Origin: a virus
DNA length: 38,839 bases
Virus record (IMG/VR): IMGVR_UViG_3300047491_000311
Span: 1 to 38,839 of that record
Direction: 5' to 3' (one strand)
This document shows, piece by piece, positions 1 to 15,908 of this stretch. A model generated the notes under the pieces. That model was not told where the DNA came from, searched no databases, and saw only the letters and a list, made by a program, of their open reading frames with translations. Each line of letters begins with the position of its first letter. The stretch's first letter is position 1. Made by a program: the position numbers and the translations under genes.

Positions 1-20
1 GTTTTTTTTCAGTGATCAAA

Positions 21-85
21 TTTTGAGCAGTACCATGTCATTTTGACACGGTGTAGATTCTACTCATACCGTCTGCTGCTCAAAA
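21..85. promoter_or_regulatory. Nested dyads with an operator-bearing promoter-like site
   Basis: A 10-bp perfect inverted repeat (TTTTGAGCAG at 21-30, CTGCTCAAAA at 76-85) encloses a second dyad (ACCATGTCA 32-40 against TGACACGGT 44-52, 8 of 9 paired). It also encloses TTGACA at 43-48 followed nine bases on by an 11-bp core of the phage palindrome (GTAGATTCTAC, 53-63). The -35 to palindrome distance matches that in the promoter at 265-293, but the expected -10 (about 66-71) is poor. It could be a degenerate promoter, a regulator-binding site or part of a packaging/cos site; the sequence does not decide. Confidence 0.45.
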
Positions 86-111
86 ATTAAGCACATGCCG
101 CTCGATGGTAG

Positions 112-267
112 CCGTTACGAGGTCAGTGTAACGCTTACCGTTACGAGGTCAGTGTAACGCCTACCGTTACGAGGTCAGTGTAACGCCTACCGTTACGAGG
201 TCAGTGTAACGCCTACCGTTACGAGGTCAGTGTAACGCCTACCGTTACGAAGTCAGTGTCACGCTTG
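112..267 (+). repeat. Six tandem 26-bp repeats (iteron or terminase-binding type)
   Basis: Copies start at 112, 138, 164, 190, 216 and 242. Copies 1-5 are nearly identical; the sixth has diverged and runs into the -35 box at 265-270. Each unit carries an inverted repeat, CGTTAC, nine bases, GTAACG; in the last copy the right arm is GTCACG. Units are head to tail without spacers, so this is not CRISPR. The position just upstream of the terminase genes fits a packaging-recognition array like lambda cosB R sites or a pac site. Replication iterons or an upstream regulator array remain possible. Confidence 0.85.
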
Positions 268-293
268 ACAAACAGTAGATTCTACTCTATGAT
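265..293 (+). promoter_or_regulatory. Sigma70-type promoter with the palindrome in its spacer
   Basis: TTGACA at 265-270, a 17-bp spacer and TATGAT at 288-293 form a near-consensus promoter. The perfect 13-bp palindrome AGTAGATTCTACT (274-286) fills most of the spacer, so a protein bound there should block RNA polymerase. The predicted start is near 300, giving about a 20-nt leader before the ATG at 321. It should drive the RHH gene and the terminase genes behind it. Autorepression by the RHH protein is inferred. Confidence 0.8.
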
Positions 294-320
294 GCATATG
301 AGTTATTGGAATACATACCC

Positions 321-500
321 ATGCAAAAAAAGAACAAGCCATTAAAGACCGTAAAATCTTACCAGATGGATATTGACTTAAACCGGCGTATGAAGGAATA
401 CGCAGACAAGCATCGTTACACCATGTGTTCGTGCGTAGAGGCGGCATTTATACTTTTCTTGGAAAAAAATGGGCAGATGCAAACCGACCAAAAACCGTGA
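321..500 (+). CDS. Small ribbon-helix-helix-like DNA-binding protein
   Basis: This 59-residue basic protein has a short N-terminal strand-like segment (about residues 8-18, around KTVKSYQMDIDL) followed by two predicted helices. The pattern resembles Arc/CopG/MetJ ribbon-helix-helix proteins, which bind palindromic operators as dimers. The ATG at 321 is preferred over the TTG at 306 because GGAA lies nine bases upstream of it. It is the first gene after the promoter at 265-293, whose spacer holds a 13-bp palindrome, so it is the best candidate for the protein that reads AGTAGATTCTACT across the genome. The target and the activator/repressor role are inference. It overlaps the next gene by 32 bp if that gene starts at 469. 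Confidence 0.62.
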   Translation: MQKKNKPLKTVKSYQMDIDLNRRMKEYADKHRYTMCSCVEAAFILFLEKNGQMQTDQKP

Positions 501-1023
501 CCATCCTCTGGTGAAAATGAAAGATGAGATACTAGGTGGCAATGGTGATAAGTCGTTAGAAGATGCAGCAAGCCCAATTATCACTTCTAAGCGTTGCCAG
601 CTTCCAGGCCAAAATGATTACGATGATATTGTAACGGCTGGCTCCTTCTCATTCGCAGAGGCGAAGCAACGGGAAGAAGTCAAGGCATTGATGGGTGAGA
701 AGGCCCTACAGTTGAAGATAGCCACCCAAACGGCTCAATTGGCCTACGACAAGGAAAAGATTGAAGTAGATGCCCGCAGAGGCGAATTGATCACAAAAGA
801 GGAAAGCAAGCAACGGATCGCCGTCCTGGTATCCGCTTTCAATGAGTTGCTACGGATGGTTATATGCGATGCTGGCGTGAAGTTTAACCCATTGGAACGG
901 GAATTATTGGTGGAGGAATTATCATCTAAGTCTAATGACGCTATGGGCTTACTCGCAGACGCAGTAGCCTCCCGTAAAAACATGGAACAAATATCCGTAA
1001 TTTTGCAAAGTGCGTTCCGGTAA
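469..1023 (+). CDS. Terminase small subunit (Nu1-like)
   Basis: About 184 residues. A long charged helical stretch (residues 60-115) contains an SFAEAKQREEVKAL-type segment and a GELITKEE segment. These resemble the central and C-terminal parts of lambda gpNu1-like packaging proteins, where a similar helix precedes a GELV/I motif. Such proteins bind the packaging site and recruit the large subunit. The N terminus lacks a clear winged helix, so recognition may differ from lambda. Start 469 has GGAA upstream but lies inside the previous gene; GTG 511 or ATG 517 are alternatives. The stop overlaps the large-terminase start (TAATG). The tandem repeats at 112-267 are its likely target. Confidence 0.6.
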   Translation: MGRCKPTKNRDHPLVKMKDEILGGNGDKSLEDAASPIITSKRCQLPGQNDYDDIVTAGSFSFAEAKQREEVKALMGEKALQLKIATQTAQLAYDKEKIEVDARRGELITKEESKQRIAVLVSAFNELLRMVICDAGVKFNPLERELLVEELSSKSNDAMGLLADAVASRKNMEQISVILQSAFR

Positions 1024-2987
1024 TGAGTTCCATTGTTTCTTTTGATTGTTTCGATGAGGATTCTGCCAAGGATGTATCATCCCTAATTCGTCCTCCTAGG
1101 CGTGCTAAAACCCGTATCGAATTCGCCCACAGTATGCGGCTCCCTGACGGTCCTTCGCAGGGTGACTTTTTCCGCCCTGAGACTGAACCAGCGCAGTTGC
1201 ACTTCATTAAGGCCTTAGACTCTAAGAACTGGCGTAGATTCGTCCTTATAGCCCCTTCGCAGCGTGGCAAGACAACAGTTAGTATCCTCATGCCTTGGCT
1301 TTATTCCATTGTAGAGGAATCTTTCGCAGTTGGTTATGTGATGCCTAACCTGGATAAATTGTCTCAAAACTGGGAAGGTAAACTCAAGCCTGCCATCATT
1401 GGTAGCGGGTTCGGTGCTTGGCTCCCTAAGTCGGGACCAGGATCAAAGGGTGGGCGTCCTGCTGCTCTTGCACTCCAGAATCCCGTCACTGGCAAACAGG
1501 TTATCACCTACTTCATGGCGGGAGGCACAGGCAGCCGTGAAACCGCCCTATCTTCTGTAAGTCCTGCTCGCCTTATGATTGATGAGGTTGATGACTTCCT
1601 AGATGCTGGCATGGTAGAACTGGCCTTGCGCCGTCTGGAGTCATGGGGCAAGAAGTCTTTGGCGTTCCTGGCATCCACCATTAACAGTCGTGGCGACCGT
1701 GAGGATCACCCTGTGTTGGACTTCTACAACAGAAGCGATGCCACACAGTCACGCATAGCCCATAAATGCCCATATTGTGAATGGTTCCAGGTTATCAAAT
1801 TTGAGCAATTGAACATGGAAAACTCCCGTATCGCATGCTCCCATTGCGGTGTTTTATGGTCTGATTCCGACAGGTTCAAAGCGTTGCAATTATCAGAGCT
1901 TTCTCATGGTCCTAACGGTATCGTGGATGGCAAAATCAACCAAATTTTAAAGCGTTGCGAGTATTTTTCACTCCTGACTACCTGTTTTGACTATAACATG
2001 GGTGATTTCAACGCTATTGCTCCTACTTACCTTGTGGCAAAGGATAAGGAAAAGCTAGGTGATTACTCTATGATGGAGAATTTCAGCCAAAAGGTATTAT
2101 GCGAACCATATACCGTGCCTATTGACCATGAAACCATCACAGACCGTTTGCTTACGATCCGTTCAACGATGGCGAAGTGTTCAAAGGGTATAGTCCCATT
2201 AGGTGCAGACCGTATTGTGGTTGGCGTTGATGTTCAAGGGGACCGTTGTTATTGGGTTGCTGTGGCTAGTGGTAGTGGTGATCGTAGGTGGATAGTAGAT
2301 TATGATGAATGGTTCTGGACTGCCAAGGATCCAGTTACCGGAAAGCCTATTGAGCCGCAGGATTCAGACCGCCATGCCATCCTTGATAAGATCATGTTCA
2401 AGGCTAGGGAGGGTTGGGAGAGTGAGTCAGACGAGAAACTGAAGATAAAGGCTGCTCTGATTGCCATTGATATAGGCTATAACCCTAATGGATCAATCGG
2501 TAGGTGGTGTTTTGGCAAGGCTGGGATCGTCCCTGTCCGTGGGGACCATGAGGATCGCGTAGTCTCTGAAACACTACAAGGCAAGCACACGACTAGGACA
2601 GGCAAGCTATCCTCAACGCTTGTTAGTGATCATGGATTCTACGAGATACGGCAGCAGGAGAATAGTCCAGGCCAGCCTAGCCACTGGTGGTTCGTAAAGT
2701 CGCAGACCATGAGAGAGCATGTAGCCGCCAGATTAAGGATTGCATTTGATTTGGAAGGTTCCATGATGTTACCGCATGGTATCGCAGAGAATGATTACCT
2801 TATCCAGCATCTTTCGGCATGGGCAATAGTCCGTGAGCAAGATTCCAAAATGGTAAGGTGGGTCCAGATACGCAAGCGTGATGACTATGCAGACGCTACG
2901 AATTATGCGATAGCGTTATTATCTCAAAAGCCTCGCCAAAGGCAGGCAAATGCCAATATAGGAAAGATAAATAATAAGCCTCTATGA
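1023..2987 (+). CDS. Terminase large subunit, GpA family
   Basis: 654 residues, the usual GpA-family length. It is the packaging motor ATPase and endonuclease. Visible are a Walker A motif (APSQRGKT, about residues 78-85), a Walker B motif (LMIDEVDD, about 184-191), two CxxC pairs near residues 250-290 (CPYC and CSHC), and acidic nuclease-region motifs (VVGVDVQGDR near 400, AIDIGY near 480). It overlaps the small subunit by TAATG and the next gene by ATGA, so it is probably translationally coupled to both. The GpA type normally goes with lambda-type cohesive ends, but no cos site can be proven here. Confidence 0.95.
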   Translation: MSSIVSFDCFDEDSAKDVSSLIRPPRRAKTRIEFAHSMRLPDGPSQGDFFRPETEPAQLHFIKALDSKNWRRFVLIAPSQRGKTTVSILMPWLYSIVEESFAVGYVMPNLDKLSQNWEGKLKPAIIGSGFGAWLPKSGPGSKGGRPAALALQNPVTGKQVITYFMAGGTGSRETALSSVSPARLMIDEVDDFLDAGMVELALRRLESWGKKSLAFLASTINSRGDREDHPVLDFYNRSDATQSRIAHKCPYCEWFQVIKFEQLNMENSRIACSHCGVLWSDSDRFKALQLSELSHGPNGIVDGKINQILKRCEYFSLLTTCFDYNMGDFNAIAPTYLVAKDKEKLGDYSMMENFSQKVLCEPYTVPIDHETITDRLLTIRSTMAKCSKGIVPLGADRIVVGVDVQGDRCYWVAVASGSGDRRWIVDYDEWFWTAKDPVTGKPIEPQDSDRHAILDKIMFKAREGWESESDEKLKIKAALIAIDIGYNPNGSIGRWCFGKAGIVPVRGDHEDRVVSETLQGKHTTRTGKLSSTLVSDHGFYEIRQQENSPGQPSHWWFVKSQTMREHVAARLRIAFDLEGSMMLPHGIAENDYLIQHLSAWAIVREQDSKMVRWVQIRKRDDYADATNYAIALLSQKPRQRQANANIGKINNKPL

Positions 2988-3253
2988 TAAATAAGCCACA
3001 AAACCGCATGCAACAGCAGGTATCTACCCGTAAGGAAGTGGAGATTGTAGAAGCCCCTCCGATTGCGCTGCCTGGCAAGGTGACGCCTTGTGTGTGTCCA
3101 CTATGCGGCAAGGCTCAATCTCCTATTGTTAGGCAACCATATCCAGACAAGGGGTACGCCAGGGTTTATTGTGGTGCTTGTGCTGGTATATTCCATTTCA
3201 TCTACGCAACTCCAGAGTTCCCAACCCCAAGAGTCAGGTTCCGGACGCAGTAG
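2984..3253 (+). CDS. Small zinc-ribbon protein
   Basis: 89 residues. The C-terminal half carries two cysteine pairs (CPLCG and CGAC) about 25 residues apart, a typical zinc ribbon. The N terminus is basic and Gln-rich. The ATG overlaps the terminase stop (ATGA). Small zinc-ribbon proteins are common beside phage terminases, but I cannot assign a function. Its stop codon TAG (3251-3253) lies inside the palindrome of the next promoter, so the transcription unit ends exactly where the next regulatory site begins. Confidence 0.75.
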   Translation: MINKPQNRMQQQVSTRKEVEIVEAPPIALPGKVTPCVCPLCGKAQSPIVRQPYPDKGYARVYCGACAGIFHFIYATPEFPTPRVRFRTQ

Positions 3254-3292
3254 ATTCTACTCATTGTATTATATTTGATAAGATGCTATAAT
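3249..3292 (+). promoter_or_regulatory. Late promoter with upstream palindrome, probably leaderless
   Basis: The perfect palindrome AGTAGATTCTACT (3249-3261) is followed by CA, a weak -35 (TTGTAT, 3264-3269), a 17-bp spacer and a perfect TATAAT (3287-3292). The expected start is about base 3299-3300, which is the GTG start codon of the connector gene, so the mRNA should have no leader. A weak -35 with a dyad centred near -45 is the layout of an activator-dependent promoter. The promoter at 9088-9131 has the same offsets to the base. Confidence 0.8.
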
Positions 3293-3299
3293 ACCTATT

Positions 3300-3551
3300 G
3301 TGCCTACACCATTAGCTACTCTACAATCTCAAATTGATGCGCTTGATGCCAGGATTATCGAGGCGGCAGGCGCAAATCAGATGAGCGATGCCAGTACCAG
3401 CGTATCGTTTTCATCTATAAATGATCTCATCGACGCACGAAATAAGCTCCAATCCTTATACGATAGGCTTAGTGGCATTAAACCTATGGCTGCGCGGGGC
3501 AGGGTTGTCGGCCTTCCTGGCGGTCCTGTCTCTCAAGGTCAATACTTCTAA
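3300..3551 (+). CDS. gpW-like head-tail connector
   Basis: 83 residues, helical, with an N-terminal helix (around LATLQSQIDALDARI), a middle loop, a second helix (around LIDARNKLQSLYDRL) and a C-terminal Gly-rich tail. Size, shape and position directly before the portal match lambda gpW-type connector proteins, which seal the portal after packaging. The GTG at 3300 is the predicted transcription start, so initiation is likely leaderless. The stop overlaps the portal start (TAATG). Confidence 0.6.
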   Translation: MPTPLATLQSQIDALDARIIEAAGANQMSDASTSVSFSSINDLIDARNKLQSLYDRLSGIKPMAARGRVVGLPGGPVSQGQYF

Positions 3552-5485
3552 TGGCTAGATTTAAGCGTCCACGGCAGTCATTTTCCCAGCGTGTTGCGTC
3601 AGAGATGAATAAAGGGCGCGGATTCTTCTCCGCTGTCTTCTCGTCTACTTGGAATAGCCTAGGTTCATGGATTAACACTTACGATGCCGTAGACCCTCGC
3701 AACCAGACGATGCGCGGTGTCATCGCTCGTCCTGCGTCTGCCGCAGACCTTGTAACCTCAATCCCGTATATCCGCAACCTATGCCGTAATTACGAGCGTA
3801 ATAACGCAACTGTCCGTGCCGCTACTGAGGGTCTGGTTGCAAATATCGTAGGCTCAGGCATTTATATCGAACCTGACACTGGCGACCCTGACACGGACGA
3901 GAAAATCCGCGCAGAGTGGTTGGATTATATCAGAGATTGCTTTATGAACGGCATGGGGCTTTATGAAGCGGAAACCCTAGCCTGCCGTGAAGTCATCGTT
4001 GCCGGTGAGGCACTTTGGCGTCCCATCATAGATATGGAGCGCGTGAAAGCAGGCCGTATCCCGCTATGCTTCCTGCCTCTTGAGCCTGAGTGGCTAGGCG
4101 ATAGTGGGCAAACCATCGTTGGCAATAATGAAGGGTATGTAGGTGGCATCACCCTGGATGATTATGCCCGTCCTGTGACCTACAACCTTACGACTCCTAG
4201 CGGCAAGACTGAACGAGTCCCCGCTAAGATGATGATTCATATATTTGAAAAGCGTCGGTCGCTTCAGATCCGTGGAGAGCCTTGGTTTGCCCCTATCCTC
4301 AACACTCTACACCAGGAAAAAGACCTAGTAGTTGCAGAGCTAGAGGCAGCCAAGAATACCGCAGGCTATGCGGCCGCAATTACCACTAATGGTGGCATAC
4401 CATACGATGTTGACGAGAAGGGTAGTCCTACCCGTGACATTAATATTGGATCGGTCTTAGAGCTTCAACCAGGCGAAAATATCCAGTTGCTATCGCATAC
4501 ACGACCAAGCCAACAGATCAAGCCATTCCGCGATATGCTGCGGGGAGATGAATCTGGTGCGCTCCGTATCGGTAGACGCTGGCTTGATCGTGATATAGGC
4601 AACGCAAATTATTCGTCTATGCGTGCCGATATGATGGACAATGACCGTCTACTTGGTCCTGTCCGTACTTGGTTTGGGAACCAGTCTGCCGGTATGGTGT
4701 ATAAGATGGTCCTTCCATACCTGGCTATCAAGGCTGGAGTCAAGCTGCCGCGCAATAACTACCGCCTTGTCCCTGACGGCCAGCCATATGTTGACCCGCT
4801 CAAGGACGCACAAGCAGCCGCTAGTAATATCGCTTTCGGCCTTTCAACCTACGAGATAGAGATTGGCAAGCGTGGCGGTGACTACAAGGCTATCTGGAAG
4901 AAACTAGCAGAAGAAAAGGCACTTGCAGAGAAGCTAGGCATAGTCCTTAATGACCCTAGTGGTGGCGTCTTTGGAGAGCAGACGGCAGAAGGTCAAGAAA
5001 ACATAGACGAGAACACTAGCGACCAATCCAAGAATAAAAACAAGCCAAGCAATAAGCCACCGCAAGGTGAGAGGCATATGACTAAATCAGAGTTCTTAGA
5101 GGTTATGACCAGGCTTGACTCTGAGAGGAAGCAAGTTGTCCAGCCGCAGCCTAGTGTAACTCTGGTGAATGAAACCAGAATGGACGCGAATACCGCAGCT
5201 ATCATGGGGAAGGCTATTGGCGAGGCTATCCCTAAACCGGAAGCTCCGATTGTGAATGTTGACCCCGCGCAAATCACTGTTGAGCAGCCAGAGATTAAGG
5301 TTGATGTTGCGGCACCTACTGTGAATGTTGCTGCTCCAGAAGTCCTTGTGGATGTAGCCGCACCTACAGTCAATGTCGCAGCCCCCCAGGTAAAGATTGA
5401 TAATGAAGTAAAGGTGCCTCGTGGCAAGGTTATCGCTAGGCCAAACAATGACGGAAGTGTAACCATGACTCCAGTTGAGGATTGA
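3551..5485 (+). CDS. Portal protein, lambda family
   Basis: 644 residues, longer than the roughly 530 of lambda gpB-type portals. The core (about residues 45-430) has the family features: a region around RNATVRAATEGLVANIVGSG (written here NNATVRAATEGLV), an EAGEALWR-like segment, a MMIHIFEKRR stretch and a GGDYKAIWKKLAEE segment near the end of the core. Beyond residue 470 is an extension rich in Asn, Lys and Pro, then short Val/Ala/Pro repeats (VNVAAP and VDVAAPT) near residues 575-620. The portal forms the dodecameric DNA gate at one capsid vertex. The repeats may face the head interior or act as a scaffold-like tail; this is inference. Confidence 0.93.
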   Translation: MARFKRPRQSFSQRVASEMNKGRGFFSAVFSSTWNSLGSWINTYDAVDPRNQTMRGVIARPASAADLVTSIPYIRNLCRNYERNNATVRAATEGLVANIVGSGIYIEPDTGDPDTDEKIRAEWLDYIRDCFMNGMGLYEAETLACREVIVAGEALWRPIIDMERVKAGRIPLCFLPLEPEWLGDSGQTIVGNNEGYVGGITLDDYARPVTYNLTTPSGKTERVPAKMMIHIFEKRRSLQIRGEPWFAPILNTLHQEKDLVVAELEAAKNTAGYAAAITTNGGIPYDVDEKGSPTRDINIGSVLELQPGENIQLLSHTRPSQQIKPFRDMLRGDESGALRIGRRWLDRDIGNANYSSMRADMMDNDRLLGPVRTWFGNQSAGMVYKMVLPYLAIKAGVKLPRNNYRLVPDGQPYVDPLKDAQAAASNIAFGLSTYEIEIGKRGGDYKAIWKKLAEEKALAEKLGIVLNDPSGGVFGEQTAEGQENIDENTSDQSKNKNKPSNKPPQGERHMTKSEFLEVMTRLDSERKQVVQPQPSVTLVNETRMDANTAAIMGKAIGEAIPKPEAPIVNVDPAQITVEQPEIKVDVAAPTVNVAAPEVLVDVAAPTVNVAAPQVKIDNEVKVPRGKVIARPNNDGSVTMTPVED

Positions 5486-5488
5486 TAG

Positions 5489-8400
5489 ATGCCAATACGC
5501 CTCGTCAATGCGAACTGCGCCACCTCAACATCTGCTGGAAACTGCAAGAAGATAGAGGCTGCGTACCTCGGTGCCTATATCGGCTCGGCACAACCGTCTG
5601 ATGACATAAACACTACGCGAACCTCTGGTAACTTCACAGTAACGGCAGGCGTTTCGCTCCAGGGTGTGATGGTTTGCGTTCGCCGCACAACGATTCCAAG
5701 CGGAACCTTCACCGTTAAGCTAATGGAGGGTGCAACTGAACGCGCCACAACATCATCACTCAACACCAGTACACTCCCCAACGGCACAGGATGGGTATAC
5801 TTCGCGTTTAACACTCCGTACACCGCAGCCGGTGCGACAAACTACCAGATTAGGCTAAACTGCAATACCTCCGCGCAGATCATGTGGATTCGCGGTACTG
5901 TTGCTGGAAGCTACAGTTATGCTGTTGTTGGCAATGGTGATGACGCAACCGGCTACACCAGTGGCGATACACTAGTTATCAAAAACGGCATCACCTTCAC
6001 GGTCGATCAGTCAATGACATTGGCTGCAACTGATGCCTTTTCGATCACTATTGGTGATGCTGGAACGCTGTCGATACCTAATCCAGCTTCACCGATTCTG
6101 CTTGACCTAGGTTCAGGGAGTATCCCACTACACACTAATACCAATTGGCTAATCGGCACGAGTGGAACGCCAATCACAAAAGGGTATGTCACTGTCAGAA
6201 GTTCAAATTCAAATCTTCTGGCGGCAAGCTATATCCTATACGAAACAATAGACAATAACTGTCCGTGCAATATCTCTTGGTACGGTAATGGTTGCACTAC
6301 CAACGCTCTAAAGGTGACTGCTACGACAGCCATAGGCCAGACGGTACTCCCGACTGAGGCTGTCCCGGCTACTTGGACCAATGGCGATACTGTTTGTTTG
6401 CTCGGCAAAACCGGCACAGCAAATGCGTCAGATAATGTTACATATACGATCACCAAAGGTACGAACCAGATCACCATTAACCCTGCATTGGGGCATGAGA
6501 TGGTCGTTGGTGGCGTTATCCTCAATAGGTCTGAAGCACTACGCGAGTCAGGTATCTTCATTGACGGCCCCACTGGCGGCGGTGCTGCGTATATATTCAC
6601 CAATGGTTTAAGCTCGACTGTAAAAACCCTCAAGCTAAGTGGTTGTTTCATTGGTGGGTACACTATTGGAGGCGTTACCGACCTTAACCTTTTGTGTGTT
6701 GCTGGCGATTGGGGTATGACGAATGTGTACTTCCGTTATTATGGCACCAATGTTGCGCTCAATTGGTCAGGTGGCGTGCGCGGTGGACACAATATCGAGA
6801 ATGTGACCTATGATGTTCAGTCAGCAAACGCTGGAGGTCTGTCCATCGCGCTCAAGAATGCGACGATTAACAAGTTGTATTCCAAGCAGAGTTCAAGAAC
6901 TGATAGTATCGGCATAACCGGGAACAGTGTCGCCATTACAAATAGCGTATTCACCGGGAAGTACGGCAGTTCCTACGGCCATTACTTCGCCGGTTCAAAC
7001 ATGACCATAACCGACTGCGTTATGGTTGGTACTGTGCGCCTAGGCGGTGGCCCAATTACCATGACCCGCTGCCAGCAGAGCTATGCGCTTGCTGACGCTG
7101 GGCTTGTGCTGGTTAACGCCTTCGTTGATGCCGTAGATTGCAGCTTTGGGGCAATCGGCCTAGCGAATACCGTCAAGGATGTGTCAGTCCTCTTGGACAG
7201 CTATGCCGATGCCTACTTTGATAGTTGCGACATGGGAACGCCAGAAGCCATCGCAACCCTCTGTGTTCCTGGCTCGTTCTTGCAATTCCATAATCTGAAC
7301 GGTGTAACTGGTCGGCATAAGACATGGAAAGCATATGGGCTTTTCGACACGGCAACCCCATATGTCAACCTCCTGCAAACCTCAATAACGACCGGCGTAC
7401 ATGAGCATGACTTCCAGTTGAATACTGGTTCTATTGCATCGTCCCAGTTTTTCCTTGCTGCGGTTGCACAAGTTCCAGCAGGGTACTATGCTGGTGCTCA
7501 TGCTGCGCCCAAGGTTGATATTTACGCAGACGGCAATCTCGTTACGCCTCTGGCTACACTATCTCTCGCTGACAATGATTCTACATTGCAGTCTGTAGCG
7601 CAGAACTTCACCACTACCACTAATGGCAACCTCCTGCATCTATTCGTTCGTACCAATACCAACGCAACTGGCAGCAACGGAACATGCACATGGTCCAGTC
7701 TCAATATCCGTTCCCGCATTTGGGGTAAGTTATTTTACGACTATCCGCTTGCTATAAGTGAAACACTGACTTACCCAATTGCTACAATTGCCGCTGTAGA
7801 GAATGACCCATTTATCACCGAAAGCACACAGGCAACCGTTGATGCCTACACTGGAATATCGTTTGATTCCAGCGGCAATCTTACTCTTTCTGAAAACCAT
7901 TCGCTCCAAGAAGTCTACGATTGGGTAAAGAGCTATTACACTAAGACCGCCCAGCAATTTAAGTCTGTTCCATTTTCTACATTAGATGGTGTAAACTTCT
8001 CAATGACTGGTGATGTTACTATCAGTGATGGTGTAACCCTCTCTGGTACTGGAGAAATTACACTAGCAGCCGGTAAAATGCTGGTACTTGGCAATGGAGC
8101 AAAGACTTCTGTTATTTTCAATACGGATCTAGGCAGGACTACATCGTTACTAATCCATCTTCCGTTGCCATCAATGGCCTTATGCGTGCAAGATGACGCA
8201 TTCTCTGATATAGAATGTCTAACTGGTCAGACTGGTGATTATCTTCTCACCATACCAGAAGGCACTACTGGAACATGGTCCTGGGCAATCAATAAGCAGG
8301 GTTATTCATTTGCTACCGGCAACTTCACTATGGTAAATGGTGGGTTGTTTGAATTCAGCCCATCATGCCCCCAGGTTTTGACGCCAGAAGGCAACCCAGC

Positions 8401-8869
8401 ATATCAAGGCACTACAAGTGCGCTTGTCCAGATATCGAAAGACTCGACCTATGCGTATATAGATATTGGCGATGGCACCCCTTCGCTACAGAATATATAC
8501 GATATGTGCGAGGATTGGCTGGCAACTGATGACGGCATAGATTGGATTATAAGCGGCGGCGACGGTACTGCTATATTCAACTCATTCGGTGGTGATTACC
8601 TGTTCCTTACCGATAACTGGCGTATCCGTCGCTGGCATGTTGGTGATGACGCAGCTACCGTACCGGCCTTCGTCCAATCAACGCAAGGAATCCCTGTAGA
8701 TGAGACTAATGGTACTGTCCAGTACCTAACCAGTGACAACCCTACCGCTATTGCCGCTGCGGTTATTGCAGCTATGAATAGCGCACCTCCTGCGGTGAAT
8801 ATCAAGAAAGTTAATGATATCACTGTAAAGGGTACTGGTACGAATACCGATCCTTGGAATCCAGCTTGA
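5489..8869 (+). CDS. Very large beta-rich (beta-helix-like) virion protein
   Basis: 1126 residues, rich in Thr, Ser, Gly and Asn, with few charged residues. Around residues 155-240 is a segment reminiscent of a G8/adhesin domain (GDTLVIKNGITFTV, then ITIGDAGTLSI). A long stretch with repeated short beta and turn units follows (residues 350-560, for example NVTYDV, LKNATINKL and NSVAITNSVFTG), as in right-handed parallel beta-helices. There are further beta domains at 730-1120. No catalytic motif is recognised. It lies between portal and protease/capsid, where lambda-like phages carry no fibre gene, so a head fibre or surface adhesin is plausible. A GAGG motif lies about ten bases before the ATG. 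Confidence 0.75.
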   Translation: MPIRLVNANCATSTSAGNCKKIEAAYLGAYIGSAQPSDDINTTRTSGNFTVTAGVSLQGVMVCVRRTTIPSGTFTVKLMEGATERATTSSLNTSTLPNGTGWVYFAFNTPYTAAGATNYQIRLNCNTSAQIMWIRGTVAGSYSYAVVGNGDDATGYTSGDTLVIKNGITFTVDQSMTLAATDAFSITIGDAGTLSIPNPASPILLDLGSGSIPLHTNTNWLIGTSGTPITKGYVTVRSSNSNLLAASYILYETIDNNCPCNISWYGNGCTTNALKVTATTAIGQTVLPTEAVPATWTNGDTVCLLGKTGTANASDNVTYTITKGTNQITINPALGHEMVVGGVILNRSEALRESGIFIDGPTGGGAAYIFTNGLSSTVKTLKLSGCFIGGYTIGGVTDLNLLCVAGDWGMTNVYFRYYGTNVALNWSGGVRGGHNIENVTYDVQSANAGGLSIALKNATINKLYSKQSSRTDSIGITGNSVAITNSVFTGKYGSSYGHYFAGSNMTITDCVMVGTVRLGGGPITMTRCQQSYALADAGLVLVNAFVDAVDCSFGAIGLANTVKDVSVLLDSYADAYFDSCDMGTPEAIATLCVPGSFLQFHNLNGVTGRHKTWKAYGLFDTATPYVNLLQTSITTGVHEHDFQLNTGSIASSQFFLAAVAQVPAGYYAGAHAAPKVDIYADGNLVTPLATLSLADNDSTLQSVAQNFTTTTNGNLLHLFVRTNTNATGSNGTCTWSSLNIRSRIWGKLFYDYPLAISETLTYPIATIAAVENDPFITESTQATVDAYTGISFDSSGNLTLSENHSLQEVYDWVKSYYTKTAQQFKSVPFSTLDGVNFSMTGDVTISDGVTLSGTGEITLAAGKMLVLGNGAKTSVIFNTDLGRTTSLLIHLPLPSMALCVQDDAFSDIECLTGQTGDYLLTIPEGTTGTWSWAINKQGYSFATGNFTMVNGGLFEFSPSCPQVLTPEGNPAYQGTTSALVQISKDSTYAYIDIGDGTPSLQNIYDMCEDWLATDDGIDWIISGGDGTAIFNSFGGDYLFLTDNWRIRRWHVGDDAATVPAFVQSTQGIPVDETNGTVQYLTSDNPTAIAAAVIAAMNSAPPAVNIKKVNDITVKGTGTNTDPWNPA

Positions 8870-9087
8870 GTGATTCATTATCCGCGTCTTGGTCTTCTTC
8901 CTGGGGTGCCTCTTGGGGTGCCTCTTGGGGTTTATCTGGAGGCGGCGGCGGCGGTAGCGGTGCTGGCAAGGCTTTAACCATACCTTATGGTGATAGATTA
9001 GTAGACTATAGTTCGTTTTATTATGAAGAACGCAATATCTCAGTTATGGATATGGTTAAATACGCCTTTGGTGCAGGATTGATTTAG
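8866..9087 (+). CDS. Small Ser/Trp tetrapeptide-repeat protein
   Basis: About 73 residues if it starts at TTG 8866, which overlaps the previous stop (TTGA). The N terminus repeats a four-residue unit of the form x-S-W-x (SASW, SSSW, GASW, GASW), encoded by near-identical 12-bp DNA repeats at about 8885-8935. A run of six glycines and a short C-terminal domain ending in VKYAFGAGLI follow. I do not recognise the family. A related tetrapeptide pattern occurs in the minus-strand gene at 33138-33845. The stop TAG (9085-9087) touches the palindrome of the next promoter. Confidence 0.6.
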   Translation: MSDSLSASWSSSWGASWGASWGLSGGGGGGSGAGKALTIPYGDRLVDYSSFYYEERNISVMDMVKYAFGAGLI

Positions 9088-9131
9088 AGTAGATTCTACT
9101 CATTGCACTATTTATACTTATCGGATATAAT
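9087..9131 (+). promoter_or_regulatory. Capsid promoter with upstream palindrome, probably leaderless
   Basis: A 15-bp palindrome (GAGTAGATTCTACTC, 9087-9101) precedes TTGCAC (9103-9108), a 17-bp spacer and a perfect TATAAT (9126-9131). The ATG at 9139 lies at the predicted transcription start. Distances are identical to the promoter at 3249-3292: palindrome start to -10 is 38 bases and to the start codon 51 bases. This should be the strong late promoter for the capsid and decoration genes, dependent on the palindrome-binding protein. Confidence 0.82.
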
Positions 9132-9138
9132 AACCCCC

Positions 9139-11121
9139 ATGCCTGATATAAAGCTACTAACTAGGTGCCGCGAGTTGGCTATAAGCCAAGAAGCCTCTAT
9201 TGATGATGGCAATATCAGAATGGTGGCTTCAACCAACGCACCTGTCCAAGTCCGTGTTTCTGTCGATGGCGAAGAACAGGTATGGAATGAGATTCTGGAA
9301 CACCAGGACGGCATGGTTGATACTTCTGCCGCAAGAGCTATTCTTATCAACCATCGTACTGATGCAATCGTAGGTGCTATAACCTCTATTTGTCTTGATG
9401 GTAATTCATCCATCATAGAGGCGAAGATCGACCAGGATGCCAAACTAGAAACCGGCGTCCGTGTCATCAATGCAGTACGCTCTGGCGCTCTAAAAGGCGT
9501 CAGTATTGGCTACGGGTATCGGTTTGATAATACCGATGATGTTTCCGTAGATTATGAGCGTCGAACCATCACAGTCCGTAAGTGGCGTCTATCTGAGGCG
9601 TCATTAGTTGCTACTCCTGCTGATACCTCGGCTGGAGTTCGTTCGTTATCCTATCCCGCTTCTATGAAAGGAAGCATCAAAATGGTTGAGCCCGTTGCCC
9701 CTGCCGTATCGGCGCAGGCCCCGGTGGTTGCACCGGCTGTAGAGCCTATCGCCCCCTCTATCCGTGCTGATGTAGCCGCAATGGCTGAGTCGCACAATCT
9801 CCGCAGTTCAGACTTCATTGGCCTTAGCCTTGAAGCTGCCAAAGCGAAGATGTTTGACCTTGTTGCCGCCCGCGATCTAGCCGCTGGCGCGAAGATCAAG
9901 GAGCCTGTTAGCTCGCATATCGAAGTTGGCGAGGAAGTAACCGATAAGGTTGCCAAGCGTGCTGTCGGCGCTCTGCTCTGGTCGGCTGGCATCCAGCATA
10001 CCAATGAGCGTATGGCTGGTCACGAATTTGCCGATGGTAGCAAGCTCGCTGATATGCAGCGTGGCAACGAGCTACGCGGCAAGACCATGACCGATATTAT
10101 CCGTGGAACCTGTGAGTCGCTAGGCGTCCGTGCTGGCAACCTAGACCGTCACGACCTCGCTCGTATCGCCCTTGGCCTACCCTCTGGCAAGCGTGATGCC
10201 GCGAATGTGCAGACCGGCTTCTTCTCGTCCTTCGTCTTCCTCAACCTTGCCAAGAAGGCCGTTAGCGTCGGCTACAGCATGGGCGGGAAGTCGATCAAGT
10301 ACCAGCCGCTTGTCAGCCGTAACTTCGTCCCCGATTACAAGCAGTTCGCCGTTGGTTCTCTTGGCATGGGCAACCTGTCCAAGACCGTTGAGAACGCTGC
10401 GTTCCCTGAGCTAGACAAGGCTGAAGGTGTCTACCTGGATCGCGTCAGCATGTGGGGCGGGACTGTCTCTCTCTCAGAGCAGGCTATCGTTTCCGATGAC
10501 ACTGGCCGTTTCTTTGACAATCTGCGTCAAGCCGGTGTGATCGCTCAGAAGACCATCGACAAGCGAGTGTTCCAGGTTCTTCTCCGTGGTATCAGCACCA
10601 GCGATTCAACTTCTACCTGGACTGACAACACCACTAGCTCTGCAACCATCGTCCACACGACCAATGACACCGCAGTTGCAGCCCGCGCCAATCTCAGCAA
10701 GGTTGAATCGGCTCTTATGAGCAAGCTGGGTCTTGACGGCAACCCGATGGGCAACATGGCGAGCTACCTAGTTGTGCCTTCCGACCTAGGTTATGTCGCC
10801 GCTGGTCTTATGGGAGTCGCCCCCGGCCAGCAGAACCAGACCCTACTACGCTACCAGGTGATTGCTACCCCGTGGCTCCAGTTCAGCGGTCTGACTGGTT
10901 ACAGCGCAACCAGCTACTACCTGGTTGCTGATCCAAGCGAGGCTTCTGGTCTAGTCCTCTCGACCATCAATGGTATTGAAGAACCAAAGGTTGAGCAGTA
11001 TGACCCAGGTGCCGTTGCAGCCTATAAGTGGAAGCTCTACATGCCGTTTGAAGTTGGCATGGGCGCTCATACCTACGGTGGTAAGACCATCATCGCAGGC
11101 ATCCAGCAAGGCGTAGCCTAA
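9139..11121 (+). CDS. Prohead protease-major capsid protein fusion
   Basis: 660 residues. Residues about 1-185 form an HK97-type prohead protease (peptidase family S78/U35), with the His motif LINHRTD near residue 72 and the Ser motif LKGVSIGY near 122. A Pro/Ala-rich linker (about 190-225) follows, then a capsid-like domain (about 230-660). One unbroken frame therefore supplies protease, a scaffold-like linker/delta segment and coat subunit; cleavage near the linker is expected. The ATG at 9139 is chosen over the upstream TTG 9103 because that TTG is the -35 box and 9139 sits at the predicted transcription start. No separate scaffold gene is seen. Confidence 0.88.
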   Translation: MPDIKLLTRCRELAISQEASIDDGNIRMVASTNAPVQVRVSVDGEEQVWNEILEHQDGMVDTSAARAILINHRTDAIVGAITSICLDGNSSIIEAKIDQDAKLETGVRVINAVRSGALKGVSIGYGYRFDNTDDVSVDYERRTITVRKWRLSEASLVATPADTSAGVRSLSYPASMKGSIKMVEPVAPAVSAQAPVVAPAVEPIAPSIRADVAAMAESHNLRSSDFIGLSLEAAKAKMFDLVAARDLAAGAKIKEPVSSHIEVGEEVTDKVAKRAVGALLWSAGIQHTNERMAGHEFADGSKLADMQRGNELRGKTMTDIIRGTCESLGVRAGNLDRHDLARIALGLPSGKRDAANVQTGFFSSFVFLNLAKKAVSVGYSMGGKSIKYQPLVSRNFVPDYKQFAVGSLGMGNLSKTVENAAFPELDKAEGVYLDRVSMWGGTVSLSEQAIVSDDTGRFFDNLRQAGVIAQKTIDKRVFQVLLRGISTSDSTSTWTDNTTSSATIVHTTNDTAVAARANLSKVESALMSKLGLDGNPMGNMASYLVVPSDLGYVAAGLMGVAPGQQNQTLLRYQVIATPWLQFSGLTGYSATSYYLVADPSEASGLVLSTINGIEEPKVEQYDPGAVAAYKWKLYMPFEVGMGAHTYGGKTIIAGIQQGVA

Positions 11122-11132
11122 GATATAAATAT

Positions 11133-11162
11133 CCCTGCCTAGGAATAAACTCTTAGGCAGGG
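11133..11162 (+). terminator. Strong intercistronic hairpin between capsid and decoration genes
   Basis: CCCTGCCTA (11133-11141) pairs perfectly with TAGGCAGGG (11154-11162), and two more inner pairs are possible. No U-tract follows (TATAAACC), so it is not a standard intrinsic terminator. It may stabilise the upstream mRNA end, act as an RNase site or partly terminate transcription. A similar hairpin lies on the other side of the decoration gene. Confidence 0.55.
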
Positions 11163-11194
11163 TATAAACCAAACACTACGAAAGAAAACAACCA

Positions 11195-11581
11195 ATGCCG
11201 ACCACTTCTGACTTCTCGGGTGTCCTGACCATCAAGGCCCCTGACGCTACCGCAGCCAACAACGCCGCTGGCAAGCAAGTTCTGGAAGCCACTTCCAGCT
11301 ACACCTTCCTGTCGCTAGGCCCAATCACTGTTGGCGGATCAACCGCTCAGAATGAACTGATTGCCGTTACCCCAATGTTCCCATTCAATCCCAAGGTCAT
11401 CAAGAATGTTGTGAAGACCGCTGGTACTGCTTGGGTAGCTGGGCAGGCTATCTACCTCATTACCGCCACTGGTGTCTTCATCACCACTTCTGGCACCGGC
11501 AAGGTTCTGTTCGGCATCGCTGCCGCAGACGCCACCTCGGCTGCCACTGTCGGTGATTTGCTCCCCTGCCAGCCTCGCTGA
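11195..11581 (+). CDS. Head decoration protein
   Basis: 128 residues, small, rich in Ala, Thr, Val and Gly, with an N-terminal segment like those of capsid-cementing proteins and a beta-rich body (ITVGGSTAQNELIAV, then GKVLFGIAAADATSAATVGDLLPCQP). Position directly after the capsid gene and composition fit a lambda gpD-like or DUF2190-like decoration protein that binds the outside of the expanded head. Codon choice is GC-richer than in nearby fibre genes, as in the capsid gene, fitting high expression. It is flanked by two strong hairpins. The upstream ribosome site is weak (AAAGAAAAC). Confidence 0.7.
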   Translation: MPTTSDFSGVLTIKAPDATAANNAAGKQVLEATSSYTFLSLGPITVGGSTAQNELIAVTPMFPFNPKVIKNVVKTAGTAWVAGQAIYLITATGVFITTSGTGKVLFGIAAADATSAATVGDLLPCQPR

Positions 11582-11600
11582 GTAGTTGGAGTTTAAAATA

Positions 11601-11640
11601 AGTGCTACCTCACCTAGCGCATGTTAGGTGAGGATGCACT
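11601..11640 (+). terminator. Strong hairpin after the decoration gene
   Basis: AGTGC (11601-11605) pairs with GCACT (11636-11640), and after a 2-by-2 internal loop CCTCACCTA (11608-11616) pairs with TAGGTGAGG (11625-11633). No T-tract follows, so an mRNA-stability, processing or partial-termination element is more likely than a full terminator. It could let the decoration gene be expressed more than the fibre genes downstream. Confidence 0.55.
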
Positions 11641-11654
11641 ATTGAGGGGACAAT

Positions 11655-12416
11655 ATGCGCTCAGGTAGTCCTATCCTATTTGATATTGCCTTGTTTGATA
11701 ACACTGGCGCAGGGCTTTCATACGCTAATAAGACTGCATTTGAGGCGGCAGGCTGGAGTCTGGCATTTATTGATATGTCAACCGGCCTAGCAGTCTCTCC
11801 GACCATAAGCTACTCAATTGCTCCTGTTGCTGGTGTTACTGGTCGGCATGTTGTCTCTGGTATAACCCTGACTTCTGCCGCATGGGTTGTCCGTGTGACT
11901 CCACCAGCAGCAACCTGGACATTTATGACGATGCCATCTGTCTTCTGGACAGGTGAGCAATACGACACTGATAATATCTATAGCCGTGTGAATTCAATTT
12001 ACGGTGTCACTTCTACGACCACAATCCCGTCCCGTACCTTGAATAACCTTGTAGAAGGCGACTCATACAGCACAACTATAGACATACCAACGAGTTACCT
12101 ATCTCGCATGGCATGGACTGACCTTTCCGGTACAACGCTTCACGGCACCATCTACCGGACTTCTGATGATGGAACAGGGACAGCAGCAGCAACACTTACT
12201 GAAGGTGCAGATCCCAAGGTATCTCATAATGCGGTATTGACTTCTTTCGATATTTCTTGGACAGCATATCCATCTGGAATGGCATTGACTACACCTGAGA
12301 GAACTGCTGGTTTTGCTGCATTCCGTGTGGAAGTTCAAGCTGCCAAGTCTGGTAAGACTCTAACAATCCTCTATAATTCTCCATTGACCGTATATCGCCA
12401 GGATGACGAGACATGA
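11655..12416 (+). CDS. Beta-rich structural protein, fibre/adaptor-like
   Basis: 253 residues, Thr/Ser-rich and low in charge, with no recognised catalytic motif. The N-terminal 90 residues (around FDIALFDNTGAGLSY) look like a beta-sandwich that could attach to the virion, and a second beta domain covers about 130-250. A GAGGGG ribosome site lies a few bases before the ATG. It overlaps the next gene by ATGA. Position between the decoration gene and collagen-like/fibre genes suggests a head- or tail-associated fibre subunit. The function is unproven. Confidence 0.6.
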   Translation: MRSGSPILFDIALFDNTGAGLSYANKTAFEAAGWSLAFIDMSTGLAVSPTISYSIAPVAGVTGRHVVSGITLTSAAWVVRVTPPAATWTFMTMPSVFWTGEQYDTDNIYSRVNSIYGVTSTTTIPSRTLNNLVEGDSYSTTIDIPTSYLSRMAWTDLSGTTLHGTIYRTSDDGTGTAAATLTEGADPKVSHNAVLTSFDISWTAYPSGMALTTPERTAGFAAFRVEVQAAKSGKTLTILYNSPLTVYRQDDET

Positions 12417-13129
12417 GCCTAGGTTTCTTTGGTTCTACTTCTCAAAGGCCAATAGTCACTTGGTTGCCTAATACATGGTCTGCTACTCAGACTTTTGCAG
12501 GAATTGTAACAGACAGTATACAAGCTGCAACATCAGCAGGCATTGTCCTTAAATCTCTGTCCGGTTCAACTGTTGTCACTCTTGGTCCTGGTTCTGGTCA
12601 ATCTGCTGCGTTTTCTGATGGTATCTCCTGCGCTAACGGGACCTTCGCTGGCACAGCCCCAGGCACTCCAACTTCCGGCCAAGTCCTAATCGGCGGCGGT
12701 GAGGTTAAGGCCGGGGCTGGGATAACCTGTACCACACTGACGGCATCTGGTCTGATCCGTTGCAATGCTTCTGGTAACAACGGTGTGTCTGTCGATGCGG
12801 GTGGCGGTGAAAGCCAAATATATTTCGGTAGGACAGCCGGGATTGCATCAATTGGAACCTTAAACGCATATGATTTCCAATTCGTTGTTAATGGATTACA
12901 GGCTTTACTGATCAACCAGTCTACAAGAGCCGCAACCTTCGCTTCGTCAGTTTCCTGCACCTCGCTGACGCCTTCTGGTGATATCTCACAAACTGGTGGT
13001 CAGTATCACTACCTCCGTGGCGATGCGTCAACCGATGGAAGCGTCCGTTTCAGCAGCCAATCATCTGGAACCATGCTTATCGAAAAGCGTGCATCTGGAG
13101 CTTGGACCAGCATAGGGAGTTTCGCATGA
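12413..13129 (+). CDS. Fibre-like protein with repeated beta segments
   Basis: 238 residues, Gly/Ser/Thr-rich, with repeated short segments around SCTSLTPSG, TCTTLTASG and SCANGTFAG. Such segments are typical of trimeric phage fibres that alternate coordinate-like strands. The C terminus contains SGTMLIEKRASGAW. There is no chaperone-type peptidase end. It overlaps its neighbours by ATGA on both sides, so it is part of one operon. A tail or head fibre is the best guess. Confidence 0.6.
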   Translation: MSLGFFGSTSQRPIVTWLPNTWSATQTFAGIVTDSIQAATSAGIVLKSLSGSTVVTLGPGSGQSAAFSDGISCANGTFAGTAPGTPTSGQVLIGGGEVKAGAGITCTTLTASGLIRCNASGNNGVSVDAGGGESQIYFGRTAGIASIGTLNAYDFQFVVNGLQALLINQSTRAATFASSVSCTSLTPSGDISQTGGQYHYLRGDASTDGSVRFSSQSSGTMLIEKRASGAWTSIGSFA

Positions 13130-13653
13130 CACTTATTCTACCTGTTGCTGATTATGATGATTGGCGTTGGTCTGGCAGCGCAGTAAACCCTCCTGGTGCC
13201 GCATCTCCAGCGGTTCTGACAGAAGTATCCACCAATGAGTGGCATTGGCAGTTTGTTAATAACAATGTGCTTGTCTGTACCGATCAGCAGATTCCTCACG
13301 ACTATGAGGAAGGCACTAACCTCCAGCCGCATATCCACTTCGCACCAACAACGACAGCAACATACACTGGAACCTGGACTATTGTAATCACTGATTGGTT
13401 GTCAGTCTCTACTGGTTCAGCCAAGCAGGCACAGACCACACTTACCGCAGCGTTTAATTCAAGCATGACAGCGCACCAATGCCAGAGTATCGACTTCTCG
13501 TCCGTCCTCACAGGGACAAACCGTAAGATTAGCTCATGCGCTACCGTATTCCTTTCACTTGCAATGAGCGCAGGAACAGCATTGTATCTGCTCGGCCTTG
13601 ACGCTCATTACAAGAAGAACTCTCTCGGTTCTAGACTTATAACTTCAAAGTAA
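13126..13653 (+). CDS. Beta-rich virion-associated protein, possible receptor-binding tip
   Basis: 175 residues starting at the ATG that overlaps the previous stop. Aromatic-rich N terminus (VADYDDWRWSG), a HIHF segment near residue 70 and a beta-rich body ending in LDAHYKKNSLGS. The composition and one-operon link with the preceding fibre gene suggest a fibre tip or head-domain protein. HIHFAP resembles the central pattern of some phage fibre-tip proteins, but I cannot assign a family. Confidence 0.5.
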   Translation: MTLILPVADYDDWRWSGSAVNPPGAASPAVLTEVSTNEWHWQFVNNNVLVCTDQQIPHDYEEGTNLQPHIHFAPTTTATYTGTWTIVITDWLSVSTGSAKQAQTTLTAAFNSSMTAHQCQSIDFSSVLTGTNRKISSCATVFLSLAMSAGTALYLLGLDAHYKKNSLGSRLITSK

Positions 13654-13661
13654 GAGATACC

Positions 13662-13982
13662 ATGACCGCAATCATAATCCCCATCACCGCAACCCAGCAA
13701 GAGATTCGCTGCGATGCGCTCATCTGCCGTAACAACCTCGACATTCCAGAGGATCGTCCGCTGGATAAGTATTCGGTCTACCTTGACCGCATCTCGGAGC
13801 CGCAAGACGCTGACGGCAAGCGTGTTGGTGAACGCCAGCGGCTTCCGACTCTGAAGATTCCTACAGCTGATGTTCTCGCCCATGAGATAACGCTAAACGG
13901 CCTGACCCTGACCGGGGCGCAGATTATGGGGTTCGTAAATGCGCTTGTGGATGATTATAAGGCTGATAGTCTCCCGGCATAG
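13662..13982 (+). CDS. Unknown small phage protein
   Basis: 106 residues, mixed alpha/beta, with no recognised motif. It begins MTAIIIPITATQQEIRCD and contains an acidic region around ISEPQDADGKRVGE. It sits between fibre-like and membrane-protein genes, with AGAGATACC before the ATG. No membrane segment is visible. Confidence 0.55.
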   Translation: MTAIIIPITATQQEIRCDALICRNNLDIPEDRPLDKYSVYLDRISEPQDADGKRVGERQRLPTLKIPTADVLAHEITLNGLTLTGAQIMGFVNALVDDYKADSLPA

Positions 13983-13992
13983 GAGTTATACC

Positions 13993-14154
13993 ATGACCGA
14001 CCAGACCAAACAGGCTTTAATCTTTATCCAACAGGCACTTAACGATTACGCTGCGACACTTGCTCCTAGCGTCCGTAGTATCTTTATCCGCGAGGCTTCC
14101 CAAGCTCTGCAACTCATTGATTCAGCAATACCTAAAGAAGACAATAAGCAATAA
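13993..14154 (+). CDS. Small helical protein of unknown function
   Basis: 53 residues, predicted mostly helical (around KQALIFIQQALNDYAATL). A good AGGAG (13981-13985) supports ATG 13993 over the longer reading from 13939. It has no signal peptide or clear membrane helix. It begins the group of small genes that includes the lysis-like membrane proteins. Confidence 0.55.
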   Translation: MTDQTKQALIFIQQALNDYAATLAPSVRSIFIREASQALQLIDSAIPKEDNKQ

Positions 14155-14160
14155 TCAACC

Positions 14161-14550
14161 ATGTTCCATGACTTCCGCCAACATAACAGGGAGCCAGCTA
14201 CATGGGCGCAGGTATTAAACCCTATCTGGTGGGCGTCTGATGTAGAACGCAACCATAATTGGACTTGGTATAAGTGGTTTTTCCGCAACCCATTCTGCAA
14301 TTTCTTTATGGTTATCGTAGGGATTGCGGATTACGATAGGGATTGTTTTTGGAGCGTAAGTCCTTGGACTTATGCGGATCGTGGATTTAATTATGGGTAC
14401 TCAATTCCTGTTCATTGCTGGAAGATACCTTTCCCATTTATCAGTTACAGGGGAACCTGGATTGAGTGGGCAATAGGTTGGAAGACTTCTGGAGGGTTCA
14501 CTATGACCCTTCGTAAATCTAACTCTTGCAACGCAAAGGATATTCCATGA
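14161..14550 (+). CDS. DUF7338-like aromatic-rich phage protein
   Basis: 129 residues, very rich in Trp, Phe and Tyr. The order of motifs (ATWAQVLNPIWW, WFFRNPFCNF, a VIVGIADYDRDCFW segment, then SYRGTWIEWAIGW) resembles the DUF7338 family found in many phages. Several hydrophobic stretches could touch the membrane. The biochemical role is unknown. It overlaps the next gene by ATGA and lies in the lysis-like cluster. Confidence 0.65.
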   Translation: MFHDFRQHNREPATWAQVLNPIWWASDVERNHNWTWYKWFFRNPFCNFFMVIVGIADYDRDCFWSVSPWTYADRGFNYGYSIPVHCWKIPFPFISYRGTWIEWAIGWKTSGGFTMTLRKSNSCNAKDIP

Positions 14551-14720
14551 ACACTCAGATAGAGATTGAATTGCTCAAGCAGGAGAATCTTCGTTTATGG
14601 AATGAGAATAATACGCTAAGACCACTTGTTTCAGATTTACGGCATAGACTCTCTATCGCTTTAAAGGGACTTCAAGACCTAGCATACGCTGAAACAGATA
14701 TCATAGAAAAAAAAGAATAA
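14547..14720 (+). CDS. Small coiled-coil protein
   Basis: 57 residues with heptad-like hydrophobic spacing through residues 3-45 (IEIELLKQENLRLWNENNTL). AAAGGA before the ATG and the ATGA overlap support the start. It has no transmembrane helix, so a spanin is unlikely by itself. It may be a cytoplasmic partner of the adjacent membrane proteins. Confidence 0.55.
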   Translation: MNTQIEIELLKQENLRLWNENNTLRPLVSDLRHRLSIALKGLQDLAYAETDIIEKKE

Positions 14721-14725
14721 AGACA

Positions 14726-15444: not shown

Positions 15445-15488
15445 GTAGATAATACTTATTGCATACAACAAGAAACCAATAGCATAAA
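15444..15488 (+). promoter_or_regulatory. Possible promoter with degenerate palindrome
   Basis: AGTAGATAATACT (15444-15456) keeps the left half of the phage palindrome. TA and a -35-like TTGCAT (15459-15464) follow at the same spacing as in the two late promoters. The -10 candidates (GCATAA 15482 or CATAAA 15483) are weaker, and the ATG at 15492 is 48 bases from the palindrome start rather than 51. It may be a weaker member of the set, read before the neck and tail genes. Confidence 0.45.
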
Positions 15489-15491
15489 CAT

Positions 15492-15908
15492 ATGCCTCTT
15501 GTAGCAAGTATTCGCAACTCCCTTTCAAGCGTCGGCAGAAAATTTGCTGATGGTGTAGTGGAGTATCGTGTGCTTACTTCTGCTCCTAACGCTACTCCTA
15601 GGACTTTCAGCACTTGGACCGTTCTTCCTTACTCAAGGTGCATGGACTTCTCAGAAATGCAGGAGCAAGACTTAAATGGCATTTGGTGCCTAGTTGAGAA
15701 TTGTATCCTTCGTGTGCCTTATGAGGCGAATGTAAATCTGAGTGTTAGGCACCAGATACGGCAAGGCCCGACTGCTTCTGGAGTGTCCACCAGCAATATC
15801 GTATGGTCTGTCAAGGAACAGATACTATCTGGTGTTGGCTCAGTATCTTCCTATAAGCTCTACCGCAAGACTCCAATGCTTGCCGATTCCCGTAATGGTG
15901 GTGTCTAA
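15492..15908 (+). CDS. Probable neck/head-tail joining protein
   Basis: 138 residues, beta-rich after a helical N terminus. It is the first gene of the tail block and overlaps the next gene by TAATG. Its length and place between the membrane-protein cluster and a tail-terminator-like gene suggest a head-closure protein. No family is recognised from sequence alone. A degenerate operator promoter lies just upstream. Confidence 0.5.
   Translation: MPLVASIRNSLSSVGRKFADGVVEYRVLTSAPNATPRTFSTWTVLPYSRCMDFSEMQEQDLNGIWCLVENCILRVPYEANVNLSVRHQIRQGPTASGVSTSNIVWSVKEQILSGVGSVSSYKLYRKTPMLADSRNGGV

Follow-up and report, generated by a model that had tools for sequence, protein, structure and literature searches.

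The virus record IMGVR_UViG_3300047491_000311 of IMG/VR was analysed over its entire length of 38,839 bp (GC content 47.5%), which is referred to here as the window. The late genes lie on the plus strand from about 320 to 24,500 and the early genes on the minus strand from about 24,500 to 38,783. Our subject is a 13-bp palindrome, AGTAGATTCTACT, which recurs before and among the late genes, and a small gene directly behind one of its copies that encodes a 59-residue putative ribbon-helix-helix (RHH) protein, P0001. A reading made from the DNA letters alone (the sequence-only reading) had proposed that the palindrome defines a phage regulon with two opposite architectures, in which one protein represses itself and turns on head genes. 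The coordinates of the features are collected in Table 1.

A palindrome with five sites in the window

The palindrome is found in exact form at 274-286, 3249-3261 and 9088-9100, always on the plus strand, and with one mismatch at the left end of the record, so that every position given in the sequence-only reading, including the core form at 53-63, was reproduced. The count of matches across the window, which that reading had suggested as a check, added a fifth, degenerate copy, AGTAGATAATACT, at 15444-15456 on the plus strand, followed by the YATTGCA flank that is also present at the other sites lying upstream of a -35 element. For the exact 13-mer, 0.0007 copies are expected, and the probability of finding three or more is about 7e-11. 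None of 200 Markov simulations of the window gave any palindrome of the 6+1+6 form in three copies, and the 20-mer AGTAGATTCTACTCATTGCA, allowing up to three mismatches, matches only at 3249, 9088 and 15444, with 0 matches expected. The palindromes are confirmed as a real operator family with five sites in two layouts.

That the repeats arose by chance, or represent a recently copied promoter cassette without a regulator, is highly improbable. The 20-mer scan, the simulations and the expected counts exclude chance. A copied cassette would account for the 76% likeness between 3249-3293 and 9088-9132, but the identity is concentrated in the palindrome, the TTG and the TATAAT while the spacers differ, and at 52 and 274 the palindrome has promoter surroundings of an entirely different kind.

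One additional match to the core, GTAGACTCTAC at 16139 (GGTAGACTCTACC, 16138-16150), lies inside the gene at 15908-16360 (about 0.04 expected). It was rejected as an operator, since no promoter elements are properly placed on either strand, and is probably a chance match. Weaker matches were likewise rejected for the absence of promoter geometry. An RNA hairpin formed by the palindrome was also discarded, the stretch 3240-3300 being no more stable than its shuffled versions.

Two opposite layouts relative to the promoter elements

At 274-286 the palindrome fills the 17-bp spacer between -35 and -10 of the promoter at 265-293, which is the top-ranked promoter-like match within positions 1-19500 of the window; the spacer position assigned to this copy in the sequence-only reading is correct. 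The copy at 52 occupies the spacer of a second candidate promoter (43-72); a weak -10 and the folding of this region into a three-way junction make its activity uncertain. Both sites have a TTGACA placed precisely 3 bp before the palindrome. The plus strand holds only 10 TTGACA, and the joint chance of the two coincidences is about 7e-8, a value that, like all coincidence probabilities given here for site and promoter layouts, was formulated post hoc, after the sites had been seen. From its sequence elements, the geometry of site 274 reads as a repressing layout.

The palindromes at 3249, 9088 and 15444, in contrast, each stop 2 bp short of a non-consensus -35 (TTGYAY). The chance of a TTG 2 bp after all three of these upstream sites is about 8e-6, and that of a TATAAT at fixed spacing behind two of the three about 2e-7. 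Counted from start to start, the sites at 3249 and 9088 lie 15 bases before the -35 (3264 and 9103) and 38 before the TATAAT (3287 and 9126), as had been claimed. Their centres were computed at -45, which agrees with the earlier estimate, and that of the site at 15444 at -42. These are the positions at which activators abut the -35. The opposition between the architectures proved sharper than originally described, the two spacer sites being combined with a consensus -35 and the three upstream sites with a non-consensus one. An activator-type dyad directly before a non-consensus -35 is found at several late promoters, which is the class II layout of the Mu C type.

Table 1. Positions of the promoters, repeats and genes discussed in the text
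Feature	Position	Strand	Remarks
Candidate promoter TTGACA (43-48) - 18 - TACCGT (67-72)	43..72	+	palindrome in spacer
Palindrome copy TGTAGATTCTACT	52..64	+	one mismatch; core form 53-63
Six 26-bp tandem repeats CCGTTACGAGGTCAGTGTAACGCCTA	112..264	+	each with dyad CGTTAC-N9-GTAACG
Promoter TTGACA-17-TATGAT of 59-aa gene/terminase operon	265..293	+	11/12 consensus, sigma-70-type
59-aa putative RHH regulator (P0001)	321..500	+	directly behind site 274
Putative terminase small subunit (TerS)	469..1023	+	assigned by its place immediately ahead of TerL, the order in related phages; overlaps 59-aa gene
Terminase large subunit (TerL), lambda gpA type	1023..2987	+	PF20454 3e-24, PF05876 2e-17
89-aa CxxC...CxxC zinc-ribbon-like protein	2984..3253	+	rival late-activator candidate; weak Lar-like match 0.028
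Promoter TTGTAT-17-TATAAT	3264..3292	+	start codon GTG 3300 after 7 nt
gpW-like head-tail joining protein	3300..3551	+	NF047331 0.005, phrog_2545 0.0057; leaderless geometry
Portal protein, lambda-family	3551..5485	+	PF05136 1e-51
Promoter TTGCAC-17-TATAAT	9103..9131	+	ATG 9139 after 7 nt
Protease - major capsid fusion protein	9139..11121	+	phrog_4523 1.8e-54; PF25209 7e-22; PF04586 1e-7; leaderless geometry
Decoration protein	11195-11581		late region
Weak promoter TTGCAT-15-TAGCAT	15459..15485	+	ATG 15492 after 6 nt
138-aa protein, start of connector/tail block	15492..15908	+	leaderless geometry
Winged-helix protein	31274-31510		HTH_11 4.5e-5

Leaderless geometry and inserted gene blocks behind the upstream sites

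The genes at 3300, 9139 and 15492 have no Shine-Dalgarno sequence, and their start codons follow the -10 after 7, 7 and 6 nt. Transcription should therefore start at the start codon itself, and the transcripts of all three genes look leaderless. In a comparison of 58 gene starts, using TANNNT at 5-8 nt before the start as the criterion, this geometry was present at all three genes behind upstream sites and at 2 of the 55 others (Fisher P 3e-4). The two other cases look incidental, one being a TACCGT at 5 nt without promoter context and one lying within a Shine-Dalgarno sequence. As most early genes carry a clear Shine-Dalgarno sequence, the contrast is a specific one.

The upstream palindromes adjoin or overlap the stop codon of the preceding gene (3251-3253, 9085-9087 and 15442-15444), and the next start codon is reached 48-51 bp on. 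The gene order TerS-TerL-W-portal-major capsid protein/protease-decoration is common to the nearest named phages, at an identity of only 20-27%. Measured against related phages, the window has extra genes in three places: between TerL and W (2984-3253), between the portal and the major capsid protein (5489-9087) and, beyond the decoration protein, at 11655-15444. The upstream-site promoters each mark the end of one such insert and appear to restart the structural cluster there. For the first two inserts the basis is the gene order of related phages; the third case is weaker, since the product of the gene at 15492 found no family match in the family searches.

The gap between portal and capsid genes is largely taken up by a gene for a 1126-residue spike- or fibre-like protein (5489-8869), which interrupts the usual head gene order, and the small gene preceding the capsid gene contains low-complexity 12-bp units, TGGGGTGCCTCT, at 8896-8950.

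A 59-residue protein as candidate reader of the palindrome

Gene adjacency and a match to SvtR make the 59-residue protein the candidate reader of the palindrome. SvtR (2kel), a repressor of the RHH class from the archaeal virus SIRV1, is its best match among solved structures (E=0.011, 48 of 59 residues, 3-50), while the reversed sequence, used as a control, matched unrelated fragments only (best 0.15). Among the PHROG families the protein matches a transcriptional repressor at 0.044 and an Arc-like repressor at 0.14. A single-sequence, single-chain model places helices at 11-31 and 38-50 with a pLDDT of 68, and the strand is not formed. Taken together, the protein is likely to belong to the RHH class.

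The reading that we tentatively favour, at somewhat less than an even chance, is that the palindrome is a shared operator and that the 59-residue protein, as its most likely reader, represses its own operon and activates the head genes. The strong promoter at 265 would drive first the regulator gene and then the terminase genes, until the accumulating regulator fills the spacer site at 274, blocks RNA polymerase and shuts its own promoter, as it probably would the candidate promoter at 43. At 3249, 9088 and 15444, bound 2 bp before a poor -35, the same protein would contact and recruit the polymerase, and leaderless mRNAs would then start for gpW and portal, for the protease-capsid protein and for a third structural block. 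Activation at the upstream sites is argued for mainly by the contrast in -35 elements, consensus at the spacer sites and non-consensus TTGYAY at the upstream sites; the promoter behind 15444, with its 15-bp spacer and TAGCAT, would be expected to show little activity by itself. Our inference that the head genes are turned on by the protein comes from the geometry alone, and the mechanism of the two-layout switch is plausible but unproven. Its fuller form, in which an RHH protein of 59 residues is the autorepressor of the terminase operon and also activates leaderless capsid mRNAs in class II fashion, by way of one perfect 13-bp palindrome in two positions, is possible but more doubtful.

If it holds, this would be a minimal switch, consisting of a 59-residue protein and one operator word, in which position alone sets repression or activation, and which provides a one-protein, one-site changeover from terminase to capsid production. 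It would couple the action of an activator with leaderless translation of those proteins most abundant in the virion, and the promoters of about 50 bp would be portable cassettes that restart a structural cluster broken by inserted genes. A limited literature search found no description of an RHH protein as a phage late activator.

Several points weigh against the proposed switch. Neither Pfam RHH_1 (PF01402) nor Arc (PF03869) matched the 59-residue protein at E<=10, hmmscan likewise found neither, hhalign gave no alignment with an Arc+Mnt profile, and Foldseek with the low-confidence model returned no match. The claim of the sequence-only reading that the gene behind site 274 encodes an RHH-like protein is thus backed by SvtR and left without support by these profiles. 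The half-site starts of the palindrome are separated by 5 bp, a distance that leaves too little room for two RHH dimers in the arrangement seen on the Arc operator. The perfect TATAAT with a TTG at 17 bp may fire unaided, and a repressor at -45 is also conceivable. Finally, no close relative in which palindrome and gene could be seen to be conserved together was found in the collections scanned (for the major capsid protein, among the matches listed). Single queries with the 59-residue protein, TerL and the portal against viral_contigs and with the portal against genome_contigs found no relatives, and the 59-residue protein gave only a chance match against phage records. An alignment scan with the major capsid protein yielded distant loci, at least 80 in number and with an identity of about 25%, and among the matches listed none had a relative of the 59-residue protein or repeats of this palindrome. 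Scans with conserved portal and TerL peptides gave 0 matches and an 18-mer pattern scan 5 chance matches. The pattern of palindrome plus promoter was matched three times in viral_contigs, always by one tRNA-end-like sequence, and in genome_contigs by five unrelated chance matches in intergenic or coding positions.

A serious rival, even if we consider it unlikely, is that the 59-residue protein is a plain repressor at all sites. The terminase and head genes would then be kept off, for example during a carrier or lysogenic state or in the early phase of infection. The closest solved relative, SvtR, is described as repressing both its own gene and gp30, a structural gene (PMC5569661). The promoters behind 3249 and 9088 might need no activator, given their perfect TATAAT and 17-bp spacer, and a dimer 2 bp from the -35 could block sigma region 4. 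Against general repression speaks the distribution of the -35 elements, which are non-consensus at all three upstream sites and consensus at both spacer sites, and the promoter behind 15444 is too poor to need repressing.

The palindrome may also be a real operator with another reader, which appears rather unlikely: the CxxC zinc-ribbon protein encoded at 2984-3253, directly before site 3249, the winged-helix product of 31274-31510 or a regulator of the host. The 89-residue protein has the cysteine pattern, and small zinc-ribbon proteins of the P2 Ogr type are established late activators; the product of 31274-31510 has its match to HTH_11. A 13-bp dyad is typical for a helix-turn-helix (HTH) dimer too, and the assignment of the 59-residue protein to the RHH class is weak. 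On the other hand, the 89-residue protein did not match Ogr_Delta (PF04606), and the 59-residue gene alone sits behind a site in an autoregulatory position.

We judge it improbable that the 59-residue protein reads not the palindrome, which would then belong to a separate system, but the dyads of the six 26-bp repeats at 112-264, in the manner of ParR or omega. Located at the left end, ahead of the terminase genes, the array terminates right at the -35 of the 265 promoter, from which the 59-residue protein would be made, and cooperative binding to arrays is common for RHH proteins (PMC5569661). The array is absent, however, from the three late promoters, and its place beside the terminase genes suits packaging sites equally. 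The repeats are possibly cosB-like packaging sites, bound by the terminase, or a second operator array.

Comparison with known systems

The likeness to Arc of phage P22, which had been drawn in the sequence-only reading, holds for the spacer position and for the half-site words but not for their spacing. In the P22 record the promoter reads TTGACA-TGATAGAAGCACTCTAC-TATATT, and the annotated Arc operator overlaps the spacer (Pant). As with the putative RHH protein behind site 274, a small RHH protein is encoded just behind a promoter with an operator-filled spacer, and TAGA and TCTA occur as half-site words in both. In P22, however, they lie 9 bp apart from start to start as compared with 5 bp here, so that two dimers paired as in Arc would not be accommodated in the same manner. 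Moreover, Arc only represses and has no upstream activating sites, and the protein sequences do not match. The comparison backs the layout, not family membership.

Among archaeal viruses, SvtR of SIRV1 represses itself and binds the promoter of a structural gene, and AvtR of AFV6, another RHH protein, both represses and activates (PMC5569661). The present case would resemble them in having a viral RHH protein whose targets are its own gene, which it represses, and structural or further genes of the virus. In contrast to the archaeal TATA/BRE promoters, longer imperfect operators and oligomerisation along the DNA in those systems, the present phage combines promoters of the bacterial sigma-70 type with a perfect palindrome of 13 bp.

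Mu C, an HTH protein, offers a parallel for the upstream sites. It has sites just upstream of the -35 at several late promoters with a non-consensus -35 (PMC4461284). Several late promoters with a site directly before a non-consensus -35 are thus shared with Mu C (and Mor), whereas the site and its sequence are different and no such spacer-positioned autorepression site is described there. P2 Ogr and P4 Delta are small phage-encoded zinc-finger activators of late promoters that carry a dyad upstream of the -35. The Ogr site, TGT-N12-ACA, lies near -55, which sets it apart from the sites described here, and the zinc-ribbon protein of the window lacks the Ogr_Delta match.

Other features of the window

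At the left end, positions 12-94 fold into a three-way junction around the palindrome copy at 52-64 (DNA z-score -4.28), and 0 of 200 shuffles were equally stable. The record terminus lies in non-coding DNA from which the early and the late operon diverge, and may therefore be a cos end. The putative terminase small subunit remained without a match in the family searches.

The products of the early genes include SSB, an exonuclease VIII-like protein, an RNA ligase and a metallo-phosphoesterase. On the minus strand, 12-bp low-complexity repeats at 33304-33458 code for a stretch rich in WSSV/WDSV in the open reading frame 33138-33845. Irregular, non-coding ACCG/CCGACCGAC repeats at 36547-36770 adjoin a strong terminator-like hairpin of 14 pairs on the minus strand (36788-36819). 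Repeated stretches are also found at gene boundaries of the early region (28365-28431, 28718-28801, 30550-30646 and 31194-31258), which suggests duplicated ends of small genes or shared untranslated cassettes.

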